Shown here piece by piece: positions 3,354-16,425 of a stretch of 24,347 bases of DNA (position 1 is the first letter of the stretch; every line of letters begins with the position of its first letter). The translations under genes were made by a program, and so were the position numbers. Below the pieces are notes generated by a model. The model saw nothing but the letters and a program-made list of their open reading frames with translations, made no database searches and was not told where the DNA came from. The DNA lies in the IMG/VR virus record IMGVR_UViG_3300041955_000237, positions 1-24,347 of that record; one strand, 5' to 3'. Origin of the DNA: a virus.

Positions 3354-5126
3354 TTACTTCCCCTTGATTATATCGCCTGTCTCGTTGAACCAAGTAATAC
3401 CATCGTCAGACATAGCACTGCCATTTGGTCCGCCGGCAGTGTGATATTTGAAATCTGATTTGTTTGCGTGAAGCTTGGCAGCATCCCCTCGGGTTGCGGG
3501 ACCTTGTCCTGCTTGCCACTTACGATCGGCTTCCTCTTCTGCTGCCAAGGTGCTGGGCTGGCCATTGATGTCCATTACCTTCATCTTGCTGCGATCGGCC
3601 TTGGAGTCAGTAGGAATCTGCTGTTCAATGGCGGATATAGTCTTGTGGCGTGCCTCAACCTTGAGGATTCCGACCACCTTGGACATTGCGGCCGCAGTAT
3701 CCTTGTCGATCTTGCCCGTTCCACCTTTGACGAAGTATTCGATAGTTCTTTGTGCTACGCTGGCAGGCACTCCGGCTTCAACGAGCTGCTTGTTCAAGCG
3801 GGCAAGTCCTGCCTGGTTATTGATGCCCATAGCGAGCATCGTGGGAGCCAAGGAAGCAGACACATTCCCGACATCAGCACCTTCTCTGATGACAGACTGT
3901 GCGGCGTCAAGTTGGGTCAGGACGTTGTTGTAACTTCCCTTCCCTCCTGTCTTGGGATCTCCTGCGACGATAAGGTTCACGTTCTCATTCTGTTTCTTGG
4001 TCAAGCCTCCGCCTTCGCCGGCTTCGGCTCTTGCCTTCTCGGCTTCAGCTCTTGCTCTTTCAGCTTCGGCTCTCTGGAGGTCGTTCTTGATTAGAGAGTC
4101 TCGGAGATCCATACGCTGCTTGTTCTCGGCCGTGAGTTGCTTGTCCATATCCCCGACCGTCTGGCCGTGCATAGTTTGAGGATCCCCCTCCACGATCCTG
4201 TCTTGTCCCGTCTTGGGATCGGTTTCAACGTGGATGTTGGGGTGGATAGTGTAGTCGGGAGCGATGGAGTTGACGGTGGAGAGCTCATAAACATCCACTC
4301 CGCCATCGGGATTGGGAAGCAAACGAGCCTTCCCCACCATCACATCGTGAGCGATGTCTTTATTGTTGGTCAGGAAGCGTTGCATAGCTGCCTGGGTAGA
4401 TTCGCCCTGGTTGGCGTCAAAGTGAAGAGTGGGAGAGCCATAAGCGTCTCTGATCGTCTTCACGTTGGACATAATCGCTTCATCGGCATCTGACACGGAC
4501 TTGCGTGTATCTGCCTGGAGCTTGGTCAGAAGATAAGGCTCTTCCAACTTTGCGTGGGCGACTTCCTGTGCGATCTGGAGACTGCGGGCATTGTTCATCC
4601 CGATCTCTGCCATTGAACGGGCGTGCTCATCGGTAGCCTTGTTGGCTTCGATGCGGTTCTTGAACTGTTGCTGGGCGACTTCAGCACGCTTTGCTTCTGT
4701 CTCTTCCGTGACTTCACGCTCTGACTTCACGCCGGCACCGAAGGCTTCACCGAAACCCTGCCCTCTCTTGACTGATTCCAAGCCGTGGAGTGCTCCGCCA
4801 AGCATATTGGCCATAAGGGCACCGAAGTCTCCCTTGGTTGTGGGAGTGAAGGCTGGAGTGGCATTGATGAAGTTGCCTTGGGCATCTGTTCCAACTTGCG
4901 GGCCTTGACGGCCACGGGCAAAGCCCTGACCGAAGGTTTCCTTCGCAGGTTGTGGCGGATTAGGATTCACAGGACCCACAGGCTGACCTGGTATTGGCGG
5001 AGCCCCACCAAGAGTGGTAGCAAGGGTGTCAGCACCCAGATCGGGAGCTTCGCCAGCCGGAGGATTGTTCACCGGCACGACAGGAGCAGTGTTATTTGTC
5101 CAGCTTGGACCGAGTTGTGTATTCAT
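3354..5126 (-). CDS. probable internal virion protein with N-terminal GPSWTN tag and coiled coil
   Basis: This is a 590-residue protein. I chose ATG 5126 over the in-frame GTG at 5135 because GGTGA lies five bases before it and the upstream gene's TAA is one base away (TAAAATG). It begins MNTQLGPSWTN, the motif also found on the capsid protein and the 228-aa protein. Next comes a Pro/Asn/Gly-rich linker (to about 60), a Gly/Phe-rich segment, long charged helices (about 130-225), an Ala-Glu-Arg coiled coil made of repeats (about 350-370), and a C-terminal region with GSAMSDDGITWFNETG. It lacks enzyme motifs. Size, helical character and place between the 228-aa and 484-aa proteins suggest a T7 gp15-like ejection protein; I cannot assign a family. 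Confidence 0.6.
   Translation of the reverse strand: MNTQLGPSWTNNTAPVVPVNNPPAGEAPDLGADTLATTLGGAPPIPGQPVGPVNPNPPQPAKETFGQGFARGRQGPQVGTDAQGNFINATPAFTPTTKGDFGALMANMLGGALHGLESVKRGQGFGEAFGAGVKSEREVTEETEAKRAEVAQQQFKNRIEANKATDEHARSMAEIGMNNARSLQIAQEVAHAKLEEPYLLTKLQADTRKSVSDADEAIMSNVKTIRDAYGSPTLHFDANQGESTQAAMQRFLTNNKDIAHDVMVGKARLLPNPDGGVDVYELSTVNSIAPDYTIHPNIHVETDPKTGQDRIVEGDPQTMHGQTVGDMDKQLTAENKQRMDLRDSLIKNDLQRAEAERARAEAEKARAEAGEGGGLTKKQNENVNLIVAGDPKTGGKGSYNNVLTQLDAAQSVIREGADVGNVSASLAPTMLAMGINNQAGLARLNKQLVEAGVPASVAQRTIEYFVKGGTGKIDKDTAAAMSKVVGILKVEARHKTISAIEQQIPTDSKADRSKMKVMDINGQPSTLAAEEEADRKWQAGQGPATRGDAAKLHANKSDFKYHTAGGPNGSAMSDDGITWFNETGDIIKGK
4020..4073 (-). repeat. in-frame short repeat encoding an Ala-Glu-Arg coiled coil
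   Basis: About two and a half imperfect 21-base units encode RAEAERARAEAEKARAEA inside the 590-aa protein. The unit is seven codons, one coiled-coil heptad, so slippage would lengthen or shorten the rod without changing frame. Confidence 0.6.
5094..5111 (-). other. GPSWTN peptide tag, copy in the 590-aa protein
   Basis: Residues 6-11 of the protein, encoded GGT CCA AGC TGG ACA AAT. Compared with the other two copies, the Pro, Ser, Thr and Asn codons differ while the peptide is identical. Confidence 0.8.
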
Positions 5127-5127
5127 T

Positions 5128-5511
5128 TTATTCACCGAGGAAAAAGCCGAGGGGTGTGAGTTCGCTCACTTCTTCAAATCCCTTTATGTGTTTCAGGAAA
5201 CGGAGCACTGGCAAGCAAGGAGAAGTCCCAGCATAACCATAACAACCAATCAGATCCTTCAATGTGCTCTGGGGAGTCAACTTCGAGTTGGACTTGCCAG
5301 AGCATTTGATTTCTAGATCCATTACACCAGCATCCAAGCCAGAAGATACCGACTTGAAAACTCGATAGCCGTGCTCATCCTTCTCGTGTCGTACACTGAA
5401 GCACTTCAGGAGAAGAGGGTTCTTGATCTTGAAAGCCAGACTCAAGGGATCGTCAAATCCGCCATTCATTTTAGAGATTGCTAACGCCAACGCTATGATT
5501 CTGTCAGCCAT
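5128..5511 (-). CDS. small muramidase/transglycosylase-like virion protein, catalytic Glu not evident
   Basis: This is a 127-residue protein. Its pattern (AISKMNGGF near residue 12, a central KNP at 30-32, then HGYRVFKSVSSGLDA and a later TLKDLIGCYG) resembles small phage muramidases of the PRD1 P5/P7 type, whose core reads roughly AI..EG....NNPGNL....G...F.s...G..AL....L..li..Y. In those proteins a Glu in the EG position is catalytic; here the site reads KMNGG, so the enzyme may be inactive or the resemblance misleading. The start has AGGTG four to five bases upstream. It sits between two ejection-type proteins, consistent with a virion-associated peptidoglycan-opening role. A capsid-neck or unrelated structural protein is the alternative. 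Confidence 0.4.
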   Translation of the reverse strand: MADRIIALALAISKMNGGFDDPLSLAFKIKNPLLLKCFSVRHEKDEHGYRVFKSVSSGLDAGVMDLEIKCSGKSNSKLTPQSTLKDLIGCYGYAGTSPCLPVLRFLKHIKGFEEVSELTPLGFFLGE

Positions 5512-5521
5512 AAATCACCTT

Positions 5522-6208
5522 TTACCAACCGAAGTCGCCTGATCCAATATTCGAGACTACTGTCCCAAGTCCGCCAGTCAAACCACCTACGACGGATTGA
5601 GTGACTCCGCCCAGGATAGAGCCAAGGATGTTGGTGCGTTCGCTATCCACCTGCTGAATAGCAGAGGTAGCGTTCTTGCCGGCTCCTGTGGCAGCATTGG
5701 ATTCACCGATGGGATTGAGGATCTGTTGTTCCCCAGTGATGGCAGAAGATGCCTGCTCAAAGTTGGCTTGGCCTTGTTCAAAGCCAGCAACCTTTTCATT
5801 CTGGAGGGCCGTGGCTTCAGCCTGGCCGCCGAGCACATTCTGAATAGCAAGTAGTTGCTCTTCTGCTCCCGTGGGCAGGTTGGTCTTTCCGCCACCGGAT
5901 TGAGCGAGACCCAGCTCGGTCGCATTCGTAGCCGCAGCCGTAGCGTTGGCAGATGTGTTGATAATCTCACCACGCAGGGCAGCATCCTCGGCCGGAGAGA
6001 AGCCATACTGATTAGGACCAGCTTGGAAGATAGGACCCCAAGTAGCTATCAGTTCGTTATAAGCAGACTGCGACTCTGCATAGGTTTGACTTGCCTGTTG
6101 CGTCACTTCATTGAAATAAGTGGTCTGGGCAGCCTCGTTTGCTTCGGAAGCAGCAGATGGCCCGCCGTTAGTCCAGGAGGGACCGAGTTGTACGATGTTA
6201 TTTATCAT
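5522..6208 (-). CDS. probable internal virion protein B-like, with N-terminal GPSWTN tag
   Basis: This is a 228-residue protein rich in Ala, Gln, Asn, Gly and Ser. It begins MINNIVQLGPSWTNGG, sharing the tag with the major capsid and 590-aa proteins. The centre is amphipathic helix (EANEAAQTTYFNEVTQQASQTY; EQLLAIQNVLGGQAEATALQNE) and the C-terminus is Gly/Val-rich (GSILGGVTQSVVGGLTGGLG), able to associate with membrane. This composition and its place after the acetyltransferase-like gene match T7 gp14-type ejection proteins, so I infer it enters the cell envelope at injection. It overlaps the upstream gene by 11 bases; its ribosome site is weak (AGAAG), so coupling is likely. Confidence 0.55.
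   Translation of the reverse strand: MINNIVQLGPSWTNGGPSAASEANEAAQTTYFNEVTQQASQTYAESQSAYNELIATWGPIFQAGPNQYGFSPAEDAALRGEIINTSANATAAATNATELGLAQSGGGKTNLPTGAEEQLLAIQNVLGGQAEATALQNEKVAGFEQGQANFEQASSAITGEQQILNPIGESNAATGAGKNATSAIQQVDSERTNILGSILGGVTQSVVGGLTGGLGTVVSNIGSGDFGW
6167..6184 (-). other. GPSWTN peptide tag, copy in the 228-aa protein
   Basis: Residues 9-14, encoded GGT CCC TCC TGG ACT AAC. The preceding codons (CAA CTC) match those in the 590-aa protein, giving QLGPSWTN in both. Confidence 0.8.
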
Positions 6209-6686: not shown

Positions 6687-6902
6687 TTATTTTACGGGAT
6701 TTTTCTTCCGCCATTGCAGCTTTGCCTCGTGCAGCTTTTCCACACGGTCGCAGTGAGCCTTGAGCGAGGCGTCCAAGTCGGGGGCGTCCACAGCAGCCGT
6801 ATGCCACGAGTCTGTCATTGGCTCGCCGCAGCAACGAACGCGATAAGCTACTTGCGTGTCGTTGATTTCCTTGATTTCGACTATTTCTGTTGTGTGTGCC
6901 AT
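6687..6902 (-). CDS. small hypothetical protein between fibre and acetyltransferase-like genes
   Basis: This is a 71-residue protein, unrecognised. Residues 1-20 look like beta strands (TTEIVEIKEINDTQVAYRVRCCGEP) with an adjacent Cys pair; the rest is a charged helix ending LQWRKKNPVK. AAGGA lies five bases before ATG, a good ribosome site. Its first four codons (ATGGCACACACA) are identical in DNA to those at an internal ATG of the next gene. It is co-directional with the virion block, with 11 bases to the fibre stop-side gap at 6902-6914 and 24 bases to the following gene. Confidence 0.6.
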   Translation of the reverse strand: MAHTTEIVEIKEINDTQVAYRVRCCGEPMTDSWHTAAVDAPDLDASLKAHCDRVEKLHEAKLQWRKKNPVK

Positions 6903-6913
6903 AGATGTCCTTA

Positions 6914-9778
6914 TTAACCTATCTTGACGTTATGGGCTGTGTGCCCGTTCTCAAGAATGTAGTGCTGGTCTTCTGGGTTGTCGGAGCGGACGTGAAGGTT
7001 ATAGAGTTTGCCAGCATACTCGCGCGCATCAGTGAAGAGTTCACTTGCTGGAACCCAAAGATCGCCCTGCTTCATCAAATGGTTGCCGGTCACGAACTCA
7101 AAGCCGCCCATGTCAAACATCTTGCAGACCACATCATCGTGGACAATCAGGTCTGCGGTATGAGTGCCTGTGACGTTCAGGATTTCTACCACGGCTGGGA
7201 GTTCATCAAATCTCTTCCAGCCTTCGGTTGTTTGGATCCGCGTGTTGCCAGAGAAACAGAAGTGAGGTCCACCGCCACCACCGCCACCGCTTCCACCACC
7301 TCCACCGGCTGTTGTGATAGCACCAATGGAAATGTAGGAGTCGTTGGAAGTTGTGTTGTATCCAACTGCTGTATAGAGGAATGAGACAGTCCCACCAGTA
7401 TAGGTAGGATCGCTGAAATAGATGACGTATGTTCCATAAGACCCGGGATTACAGGAGCCGCTGTTGTAGCTCACTGTTCCGAATCCATACTGGATGGTGA
7501 AAGCCGCCACATTGATGGTTGTGCTCGTCCCGCTCTGGCTCAGGATTGCTCCGGATGCCGTGTTCGAGCCAGTGTTGCACAGCGGGTTCATCGTGTGGGA
7601 GTCAACCACTTTGAGGACGCGAATAGCGTCAAACTCATGCGTCCCGCCACTTGCTCCGAATGAATAACATTCAACAACGCCTACCGTCGCGCCTGAGCCA
7701 ACGACGCCTTGGGCAGTCAAATAAGACCAGCTCGAAGAGGTACTGGATATACCTGCGTAACCGTCTGTATTTTCCGTGCCGCGCGCCGGCAGGAACCGCA
7801 GCAATGCATAAGCTGCGTTCGTCCCATCGGACTTGATGGCACCACTGATCTGATAGATCTCTCCGGGAGTAACGGGGAACGACTGGATCGAAGTAACGCC
7901 AGCAGCTTGCGCTGTTGCGACTATCTTCAACGACTGCGAACCAGAGTATTGCGTCGTGGTGTCGTAGGAGAGCGTGCAGCTCGATCCTATGTAGGCGTCG
8001 CCGCCAAGCTGCCAGCCCGGAGGCGGCAAGACCGTAGAGCTTGCCTCAAAATCGGAGTTCGTCACCATCACGGGGCTGCCCGAGTTGATCGGGTCCATCA
8101 CATACACCGAGCCGTTTATGATCGCATCGGCTGAAGTAGGCCCAGCGCAAACCCAGTGCGAGGTTCCAGCGGGAGCGGGCGTCTGCCCGGTTCCCCCCAA
8201 CTGGCAAACATAGTAATTTCCGCCGTAGGAAACTTCGTTTCCCTGAACATAGGCTGTCCCCGCATTGTATGCGCCCTTGTAGACATACGGGACTCCGCTG
8301 CTCAAGCTGCTAAGCGTTACTTTCCCGTAGGTGACGCCATCGGCGATGGAGTCAATGTTCTCGGGGCCGACAAGCTGCCAGTATGTTCCGTTTGGCGGGG
8401 CGTTGCCTGTCGTGGCAGCGATACAGGAATAGACGTTGCCGTCTGTGCCGACCGCTTCCATCCCGATTGTATAAGCGATGCCCGCACTGTAGGCTGCCAG
8501 AGCGATGGCTGATGTGCCTGTATTGAGCCAGTAAGAAGAGCCAGGAGCAGGCGTGTTTCCCGCTGGCACAGAAGAAATAGCAACCCAGAAGGAGCCATTC
8601 TGCGTCACCATTGAGCCGGCCGAATAGACCTGGGAGCTGTTGTAGGCTCCGATGAAGTTCACAGTGGCAGTCAGAAGTTGCCAATAGCCTGTGGTAGAAG
8701 TCGGGTTCTCGTTGGTGCTGGCCGCTATGGCAATGTAAAGAGCACCGCTGACAGAGACAGTCTGACCGATTTGATAAGTTAGAGTGCCTGACCAAACTCC
8801 CACATAGGATGCGTTGTTTATAGGCATCCAGTAGGTTGCGTTCGGCGGGGTCTCATTCGTGTTGCCGGCGATACAAAGATAGATGGTGCCCGAGAGCGAG
8901 ACTTCAGCTCCTGCGGTGTAAGCTACCGTGGAACTCCAAGGTCCCGAGAAGCCAAAAACTATGCTCTGGACTACTCCACTCTGTGCTGATGTGGCTGCAC
9001 TTTCGTTCCCGTAGACATCCACGGAGGTCACGAAATAGTAGTAGGTCAGCGAGCCTTGATTGACGGCATCCTGGAAGACATAGCTGCCCAAAGCTGTCAG
9101 GTCTTGAGGGACGGTGCGGATCTTCGTGGAGCCGGCGAACGTGTTGGCGGAAGTGTTCCGATAGACGTTATAGCCAGTGATGATTGTGCCTACAACGCCA
9201 GATAGATAATCAAAGGTGAACTGATAGCCGCCAGAATATGCCGTCAGAGAGCCTGAAACAGTGGGAGCCGGAGGAGCAGAAGAGACGCCATTCAGCACGA
9301 TCGCTGTGGCTGGTGCTCCACTAAAAGGAGCCGAGATGCCAGTAGCATTGAAAGCTACGGCTGTGACGGTGACGGTTTCCCCTGTGGTGTCGGCAAGGAA
9401 AGAAACTGGTGATGTCTGGCCGCTGGCCACAAGCACCGGATTAGCGTTGCCGTGATATCCGGATAGCCAAATATCAGCCCCAACTCCCGAGGGATGAGAG
9501 AAGGTGACCGAGACCAAGATATACATCACGTTATTGGTCTTGTAGGGCTCCTGGGTGACAACCAGGCCAGAAAGCTGCCCAGGAACACTCGTAGATGTGC
9601 TGGTGGGCGTAGAAACAGAAGATGAAGCCGCAATCCCGGGCTTGCCAACCTCTATCGGGGTAATGATAGGCAGAGGTTGAGCTCCGGTACGCTTAACACC
9701 AATGAGGGTGTTATCTACCGTGTCTGCCTGGTAGGCAATGTCTGCTGGAAATGTTCCACGATTAGGAAGAGCTGTCAT
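6914..9778 (-). CDS. large modular tail fibre/adhesin with CBM5/12-like repeats and C-terminal Hint domain
   Basis: This is a 954-residue protein, probably the receptor-binding tail protein. Order: a short N-terminal segment likely anchoring to the tail (1-45); Ser/Thr linker (50-66); FN3-like domain (about 70-165); second FN3-like domain (about 168-270); five tandem repeats resembling CBM5/12 chitin-binding modules (about 279-546), each with an aromatic start, a Y..G..V centre and an ending YW; a jelly-roll carbohydrate-binding-like domain (about 570-727); a beta-rich stretch; a glycine linker (825-837); then a Hint domain (841-950). Its ATG overlaps the TAA of the nozzle gene by one base. 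I infer that it binds surface glycans and may be processed by the Hint domain. The lack of a recognisable trimerisation or chaperone domain other than Hint is unusual. Confidence 0.8.
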   Translation of the reverse strand: MTALPNRGTFPADIAYQADTVDNTLIGVKRTGAQPLPIITPIEVGKPGIAASSSVSTPTSTSTSVPGQLSGLVVTQEPYKTNNVMYILVSVTFSHPSGVGADIWLSGYHGNANPVLVASGQTSPVSFLADTTGETVTVTAVAFNATGISAPFSGAPATAIVLNGVSSAPPAPTVSGSLTAYSGGYQFTFDYLSGVVGTIITGYNVYRNTSANTFAGSTKIRTVPQDLTALGSYVFQDAVNQGSLTYYYFVTSVDVYGNESAATSAQSGVVQSIVFGFSGPWSSTVAYTAGAEVSLSGTIYLCIAGNTNETPPNATYWMPINNASYVGVWSGTLTYQIGQTVSVSGALYIAIAASTNENPTSTTGYWQLLTATVNFIGAYNSSQVYSAGSMVTQNGSFWVAISSVPAGNTPAPGSSYWLNTGTSAIALAAYSAGIAYTIGMEAVGTDGNVYSCIAATTGNAPPNGTYWQLVGPENIDSIADGVTYGKVTLSSLSSGVPYVYKGAYNAGTAYVQGNEVSYGGNYYVCQLGGTGQTPAPAGTSHWVCAGPTSADAIINGSVYVMDPINSGSPVMVTNSDFEASSTVLPPPGWQLGGDAYIGSSCTLSYDTTTQYSGSQSLKIVATAQAAGVTSIQSFPVTPGEIYQISGAIKSDGTNAAYALLRFLPARGTENTDGYAGISSTSSSWSYLTAQGVVGSGATVGVVECYSFGASGGTHEFDAIRVLKVVDSHTMNPLCNTGSNTASGAILSQSGTSTTINVAAFTIQYGFGTVSYNSGSCNPGSYGTYVIYFSDPTYTGGTVSFLYTAVGYNTTSNDSYISIGAITTAGGGGGSGGGGGGGPHFCFSGNTRIQTTEGWKRFDELPAVVEILNVTGTHTADLIVHDDVVCKMFDMGGFEFVTGNHLMKQGDLWVPASELFTDAREYAGKLYNLHVRSDNPEDQHYILENGHTAHNVKIG
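6929..7258 (-). other. Hint (intein-like) autoprocessing domain
   Basis: Residues 841-950 of the fibre. Block A begins at Cys841 (CFSGNTRIQTTEGWKRFDEL); block B has T897-G-N-H900, the TxxH signature; the end has LYNLHV ... HYILENG ... AHN, with the penultimate His949 and Asn950. Only four residues (VKIG) follow, and the +1 residue is Val, not Ser, Thr or Cys. At 110 residues it has no endonuclease insert. This is the pattern of cleaving (bacterial intein-like) rather than splicing domains. Confidence 0.85.
7268..7306 (-). repeat. GGN-codon tract encoding the glycine linker before Hint
   Basis: Thirteen codons encode twelve glycines and one serine (GGGGGSGGGGGGG). On the plus strand the tract is a run of CCACC/GCC triplets. 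Slippage in units of three would change linker length but not frame. Confidence 0.8.
8141..8944 (-). repeat. five tandem CBM5/12-like modules in the fibre
   Basis: Modules start at about residues 279 (GPWSSTVAYTAG), 326 (GVWSGTLTYQIG), 377 (GAYNSSQVYSAG), 427 (AAYSAGIAYTIG) and 502 (GAYNAGTAYVQG). Each continues with a V..G..Y/W.....N/G.PP/AP pattern and ends YW or HW. CBM5/12 domains bind chitin and related glycans through such aromatics. Confidence 0.75.
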
Positions 9779-15366: not shown

Positions 15367-16425
15367 TTAAGCTACGGCTGTTTCGCTCTTGATGCGACGG
15401 AACGGCATAGTCGTTCCAGGACGGGGCGTGGCCACAAACTTGAAGTTATAGGACACGGCTCCGGCGATTTCGCCACCAGGATCGAAAGCACTCGGTTCAA
15501 ACTGGTAGATAGAAGCGTGGAAGTTATTCTGGTCAGGAACATCTTCGAAGCCACCCAATCCGATACTGAAGATTGTGTCTTCAGCAGAGATATAGGTGCA
15601 CCACGAGGACTTGCCTGTAGTTGGAGAGTTGCTCAGCAACGGGACGTTAGTCGTCGTTACGAAGTCAACACCGGCAACAGGAATAACCTTGTTGGCACGT
15701 ACCAACCCGGCTTCAATCCACTCTTGACCTTCACGGGTGTGCTTCTCAACATCGAGAACGCCATTATTTGTAATGTCGTTCGCAACGTCGGATAGAACAT
15801 ACGGGTGGATTAGACCACGCATATTCCCACCCTCGAAAGGTAGACCGTTCTTGCCACGGATAGTGGCAACGGCAACGTTGATGACTGCACGGGTCATATA
15901 GTTCCCGTCAGCCACCTGTTGGTCGCACGTACCATCAGTTACGATGGCTGCGTCAAAGGACTGTTGAATAAGCGTGTCCACAACGAGGCGGCCACGATAT
16001 CCAAGCAGCTCGGACAACATTTCGAGCGGTTTCCCAATATCAACCGCTTCGGCGAAGTCGGAAATGTTGGTGTAGTCTACGTACTGACCAAGCACAGCAG
16101 TGATGCTAGCTTCAGTCGGCGTGATAGGTGTTCCAACAGTTCCTTCTGATGCCGTACTTGGAGCTGTGTCAGCTGCGTTAGCAACGACACCGCTTGTATA
16201 CGGGCCGAGGTTAGGTGTATAGATCTGAGTCGTGCGGCCGGACTTCATTGGGATCTGGCGTTCAGATGTGAGATCCTGAAAACCAAGATGGGCAAAGAGA
16301 GCACGGACGGCGAGACGGTCATAATACACTGCCTGGGTTGAAGGTAGAGATGAACCGATGACGTATGAAGCAGAGCTATTGCTGTAGTTGGTCCAGGAAG
16401 GACCGAACGCAGTATAGTTATTCAT
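15367..16425 (-). CDS. major capsid protein, N4gp56 family
   Basis: This is a 352-residue HK97-fold coat protein. The stretch RQIPMKSGRTTQIYTPNLGPY, then PITPTEASITAVLGQYVDYTNISDFAE and IGKPLEMLSELLGYRGRLVVDTL are typical of the N4gp56 family of major capsid proteins. It begins MNNYTAFGPSWTNYSN, with the tag shared by two other proteins. AGGTGA lies four to five bases before ATG, and a strong stem-loop lies in the short leader behind the scaffold gene. Scaffold gene upstream and hairpin terminator downstream fit high expression. The phage head is assembled from this subunit. Confidence 0.9.
   Translation of the reverse strand: MNNYTAFGPSWTNYSNSSASYVIGSSLPSTQAVYYDRLAVRALFAHLGFQDLTSERQIPMKSGRTTQIYTPNLGPYTSGVVANAADTAPSTASEGTVGTPITPTEASITAVLGQYVDYTNISDFAEAVDIGKPLEMLSELLGYRGRLVVDTLIQQSFDAAIVTDGTCDQQVADGNYMTRAVINVAVATIRGKNGLPFEGGNMRGLIHPYVLSDVANDITNNGVLDVEKHTREGQEWIEAGLVRANKVIPVAGVDFVTTTNVPLLSNSPTTGKSSWCTYISAEDTIFSIGLGGFEDVPDQNNFHASIYQFEPSAFDPGGEIAGAVSYNFKFVATPRPGTTMPFRRIKSETAVA
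16387..16404 (-). other. GPSWTN peptide tag, copy in the major capsid protein
   Basis: Residues 8-13, encoded GGT CCT TCC TGG ACC AAC, preceded by Phe instead of Leu. Confidence 0.8.

Follow-up and report, generated by a model that had tools for sequence, protein, structure and literature searches.

The tail fibre of a soil phage ends in a Hint domain, and 18 more domains of this kind recur in 17 other records, which derive from phages of environmental and faecal origin and, in one case, from a bacterial genome. The fibre is encoded in a virus record of 24,347 bases, analysed over its full length and referred to here as the window. Known Hint domains comprise the inteins within phage enzymes, the BIL domains and the Hint of Hedgehog. 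The fold and the chemistry of the domain are known; its place at the end of a tail protein is new. In full-text searches, phage Hints were described as inteins of proteins such as terminase, helicase and reductase, and the databases contain viral proteins named merely 'Hint'. The literature searched, which covered a minority of subscription papers, contained no description of a Hint as the last domain of a phage tail protein. The explanation we prefer, at about even chances from residues and position, is a BIL-like domain that would cleave itself away during fibre maturation, having first served as a temporary cap or as an aid to folding. If true, this would be a new self-processing route in fibre maturation, independent of Ser-Lys chaperone domains, and the predicted fibre lengths and tips would be wrong in many phages. 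In addition, natural Hints this small (about 105-125 aa), if they cleave on the N side, could be of use for protein release or thioester chemistry.

The 954-aa fibre has four CBM_5_12 matches and one C-terminal Vint match, the only Pfam families found in it (Table 1). The CBM_5_12 repeats suggest glycan binding. The preliminary description had identified the first cysteine, the TGNH motif, the closing His-Asn, the VKIG tail and the preceding glycine linker; a script and the translation reproduced these residues exactly. The span 6929-7306 named there runs from Gly825 to Asn950.

Table 1 Features of the fibre gene and its neighbours in the window.
Feature	Position	Strand	Basis
Tail fibre gene, 954 aa: four CBM_5_12 repeats, beta domain, glycine linker, terminal Hint	6914..9778	-	
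Beta domain, about residues 753-824, common to some 30 other fibres	7307..7522	-	
Glycine linker GGGGGSGGGGGGG, 13 residues, 825-837	7268..7306	-	
Pro-His-Phe 838-840; expected N-side scissile bond Phe840-Cys841	7259..7267	-	Expected from Hint chemistry
Hint domain, Cys841 to Asn950, 110 aa	6929..7258	-	Pfam Vint, AlphaFold2 model, PDB matches
Block B TGNH, residues 897-900	7079..7090	-	Motif position and alignment
Closing His949-Asn950 (block G)	6929..6934	-	Motif position and alignment
VKIG, residues 951-954, after Asn950, then stop TAA	6917..6928	-	
71-aa gene with conserved Cys-Cys (RCCG), adjoining beta-domain fibres with and without Hint	6687..6902	-	
Proteins with shared N-terminal peptide	15367-16425, 5522-6208, 3354-5135	-	

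Structural modelling assigns the fibre end to the horseshoe Hint fold with high confidence. The C-terminal 130 aa matched Pfam Vint, a Hint family, with an E-value of 3.2e-5 and 24.2-24.4 bits, below the curated gathering cut-off of 27 bits, which the related fibre L028 exceeds (41.7 bits). An AlphaFold2 model, built from ten natural sequences, reached a pLDDT of 92.1 and a pTM of 0.84. Foldseek returned 23 PDB matches at E < 0.001, all of them inteins, BIL domains or Vint, and the best 44 PDB matches were all Hint. With VIA-align, the Vint structure 8r2c scored Z 12.8 (2.1 Å over 110 residues), tied within 1 with the BIL 2lwy (12.7), the NpuDnaE intein (12.5) and the BIL2 6y75 (12.4); Hedgehog 1at0 followed with 10.8. 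By this model and its matches, the fold is complete at 110 residues. Cys841 and TGNH supply the position 1 residue (Cys/Ser/Thr) and the block B Thr-x-x-His of the Hint superfamily. The +1 Cys/Ser/Thr and C-extein of class 1 inteins are replaced by Val951 and four residues to the stop. His949-Asn950-Val951 corresponds to the signature of A-type BIL domains, a closing His-Asn without +1 nucleophile (PMC7765530, PMC7664689). By this signature, and by the structural closeness to 2lwy and 6y75, the A-type BIL domains are the closest kin in chemistry. Thus fold model and residue conservation both uphold the earlier view of a complete Hint with all catalytic residues.

Among the bearers, besides the window fibre, are tip proteins resembling lambda gpJ and a minor tail protein resembling gpL. 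Counting the window, the Hint forms the protein end in 17 of 18 records. We scanned with the beta domain that precedes the linker, excluding the Hint from the query, and obtained 33 loci, among which L024, L026, L027, L028, L034, L036, L038 (= L010) and L044 end in a glycine linker and a Hint. L008, which matches the window fibre over beta domain and Hint (5e-25), and L059 are two additional carriers of this layout, and L079, a human faecal phage, has it in a gpJ-like protein. The search for homologous fibres proposed in the preliminary description therefore yielded the same order of beta domain, linker and Hint in eleven other records. L010, L036 and L079 are lambda-gpJ-like tip proteins (Phage-tail_3). 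In L007, a gpL-like minor tail protein carries a Hint extension; its Roseobacter and Salmonella phage relatives end where this extension starts, which indicates an add-on and not an insertion. L083 and L086 have one terminal Hint each, as does L075, in a bacterial genome from the same order as the Acidobacteriaceae genome bin discussed below. Among 298 genomes of one order there was one high score, on the already known phage contig, and three weak matches, including L075. The terminal Hint is a recurrent, mobile module. It is not a one-off.

The four type-2 domains (L024, L026, L027, L034) are probable Hints. Their model was poor (pLDDT 63), its PDB matches were nearly all Hint folds, and the profile comparison of type 1 with type 2 was weak (81.7%, a single 36-column stretch). 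Searched alone against viral_contigs, the window Hint retrieved ordinary inteins only (L001-L004). A tblastn search of INPHARED gave no match at E 0.01, and at E about 4 only inteins and scattered weak matches; an approximate consensus of Hint-like marine fibre ends, used as query, had no match. Rows 2 and 3 of seed alignment A1 are invented variants, made for widening search patterns only, and are not data.

Three further arrangements were observed. On a 463-kb phage contig, two tandem Hints with KAAV between them end one protein (L062:4647-5375). In L085 (4248-9866), a TIG domain, a nine-Gly run and a Hint lie in the early part of a structural protein of 1,873 aa, whose later part matches the large structural protein of L008. 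The +1 residue of this Hint is Ile. Finally, in cultured Gordonia phages, for example Gordonia phage SchottB (L023), a head-morphogenesis/minor capsid protein contains a Hint-like match (E 6e-3).

The catalytic residues were compared across 18 records and 19 domains, the window included and near-copies counted once. Cys1 and the closing His-Asn were present in all 19. The +1 residue was V, L, A, M, I, K, Q or N, and never C, S or T. Without a +1 nucleophile ordinary splicing is not expected, as had already been proposed from Val951 of the window. In an alignment of 10 type-1 domains, to which the window Hint is 28-42% identical, 10 columns were invariant and included all five expected catalytic residues (C1, T57, H60, H109 and N110 in domain numbering), an overlap with a chance of about 2e-6 if catalytic positions were random. 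As a caveat, CFSGN-type motifs were part of the patterns by which some members of this set were found. In the Hint-blind beta-domain scan, Cys1 and His-Asn occurred in 8/8 of the Hint ends found, six of them new, while 6 of 579 other ORFs have His-Asn within the last 10 residues. The block B Thr-x-x-His is intact in every type-1 domain, in L024 and in L079, and altered in L027; its His is missing in L026, L034 and L075, which retain Cys1. After the last Asn follow 1-8 residues in 16 of the 17 terminal records and 28 in L007. These tails have no common sequence, and the tail of L024 is a single Lys. By published definitions, the combination of Cys1, closing His-Asn and no +1 nucleophile is the signature of cleaving, not splicing, domains.

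Relatives without a Hint are informative as well. About 20 beta-domain fibres (near-copies and one cut end not counted) terminate within or directly behind a glycine-rich stretch, with an end of Gly plus a few residues. These natural ends coincide with the point where N-side cleavage would leave the window fibre, in agreement with the earlier suggestion that a cut at Cys841 would produce a glycine-linker end. On the beta-domain tree, the Hint state changed at least seven times (bootstrap 6-8), with at least four changes forced by well supported branches, so that many gains or losses took place. Between L008 and L059, dN and dS were 0.231 and 1.911 for the Hint, and 0.232 and 2.194 for the fibre body; with dS near saturation, the dN/dS ratio of about 0.12 is approximate. 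The Hint is under purifying selection, with a constraint equal to that of the fibre body.

The window also encodes a terminase, a portal and a major head protein. The only cultured phage with a terminase match over at least 80% of the length was Tunturiibacter phage Tunturi_3 (25% identical). An Acidobacteriaceae genome bin contains a contig (L012) identical to L008, which makes an acidobacterial host plausible for the group, rather than showing the host of the window itself. The Cys-Cys protein comes next after the fibre, both in the window and wherever a beta-domain fibre with a Hint was examined, and many Hint-less ones have it too. Its family adjoins beta-domain fibres in diverse phages and matches no known family. 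As an acceptor for the Hint it was ruled out, because it also accompanies Hint-less fibres; it is part of the fibre neighbourhood and not a Hint-specific partner. In L044, in the frame after position 5615, the Cys-Cys protein has an inserted CxxC-rich, zinc-finger-like stretch, CSGCAGSGCPACGGKG. Three window proteins, the major head protein included, share an N-terminal peptide (MNNYTAFGPSWTN, MINNIVQLGPSWTN and MNTQLGPSWTN). Its synonymous codons differ, which indicates conservation as protein, and it is possibly a common N-terminal signal. It was absent from every relative fetched.

In the self-cleavage mechanism that we propose, Cys841 would take the carbonyl of Phe840 in an N-to-S acyl shift, helped by Thr897 and His900, and the resulting thioester would be hydrolysed. 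Asn950 would cyclise with the assistance of His949 and free VKIG. This would leave a mature fibre that ends in its glycine linker, like the Hint-less relatives, and the Hint would have been a temporary C-terminal cap, removed once the fibre is made. Its role may be analogous to that of the C-terminal chaperone domains by which other phage fibres and spikes cleave themselves, although its fold is a different one. BIL domains have no +1 nucleophile and for the most part cleave (PMC7664689). Furthermore, phage tailspikes are known to carry chaperone domains that cleave themselves off (ICA), and it has been proposed that fibres may bear transient caps (PMC8326128, PMC10579305). We favour a self-removing terminal domain because the natural ends of the Hint-less relatives resemble the N-side cleavage product. 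The universal Cys1 and His-Asn, the terminal position and the +1 residues also point to self-cleavage. Three observations argue against it. The loss of the block B His in L026, L034 and L075 should weaken N-cleavage there, the closing Asn is conserved although few residues follow, and the internal Hint of L085 is a misfit to the simple model, since about 1,500 residues come after it and cleavage would sever the protein. The catalytic residues may be kept for the fold rather than for catalysis.

A broader idea, which we regard as possible yet rather doubtful, is a widespread, hitherto unrecognised class of phage tail-tip proteins with a swappable terminal Hint. Its reactive thioester at the tip would serve to cap receptor-binding proteins, to trim them or to attach them covalently, and one slot would be occupied by very different Hint types and by tandem copies.

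The lost block B His and the internal L085 copy would suit a structural role, in which the Hint fold forms a stable knob or binding domain that is retained on the fibre and either does not cleave or does so only slowly. Residues can be conserved by fold-stabilising roles, too. Yet Cys1 and Asn are found in every copy across highly diverged types in which much else is variable, and we consider such a structural tip unlikely. A reactive fibre is less probable still. Here the Cys841 thioester would be resolved by a nucleophile, supplied by another virion protein, by the cell surface or by a small molecule, leading to covalent attachment as with Hedgehog and cholesterol. The terminal position, the flexible linker and the conserved Cys1 agree with this, receptor-binding proteins are frequent among the bearers, and Hedgehog needs the first acyl shift only (PMC7664689). 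However, the 1-8 residues after the Hint leave no acceptor-binding region, the closing Asn is retained throughout while being dispensable for attachment, and the adjacent Cys-Cys gene, found beside Hint-less fibres as well, is not a dedicated acceptor.

We think it improbable that the domain has kept the splicing activity of a mini-intein or BIL and ligates the linker to the few residues behind it. BILs lacking a +1 nucleophile have been reported to splice (J Biol Chem 2004, ref. 69 of PMC7765530), and the Gly-plus-few-residues ends of Hint-less fibres would fit its product, but the lack of C, S or T at +1, the unrelated tails and the single Lys of L024 speak against it. A selfish passenger that does nothing for the fibre, as the patchy distribution and the quite different Hint types at the same end might suggest, is very improbable given the lack of a homing endonuclease, the nearly constant site at an end behind a linker, and a selective constraint equal to that on the rest of the fibre.

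Self-cleavage, our preferred reading, has its counterpart in position and proposed role in the ICA ends of tailspikes and fibres, which are also C-terminal, self-removing domains. They differ in fold and chemistry, as ICA uses a Ser-Lys dyad (PMC8326128), and the C end of the window fibre has no ICA-type Pfam match. Mini-inteins (gp41-1, NpuDnaE, MchDnaB) have the fold and catalytic blocks in common with the window Hint, which, unlike them, lacks a +1 nucleophile, has practically no C-extein and does not sit in a conserved enzyme site. The Hog-Hint of Hedgehog is likewise terminal and processes the preceding part; in the window, by contrast, His-Asn is kept and only four residues follow, with no sterol-recognition region. 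Vint (PF14623; T. thermophila 8r2c) is the best Pfam match, although below the profile cut-off, and among the best structural matches. It was defined in eukaryotic VWA proteins (PMC2362128), whereas the 954-aa fibre has no VWA domain. The A-type BIL domains of C. thermocellum (2lwy) and of T. thermophila BUBL1 (BIL2, 6y75) share with the window Hint the fold, Cys1, the block B Thr/His, the closing His-Asn and the absence of a +1 nucleophile. They are larger, with about 138-150 aa against 110, and A-type BILs occur in variable bacterial proteins, whereas the window Hint ends a phage tail protein behind a glycine linker.
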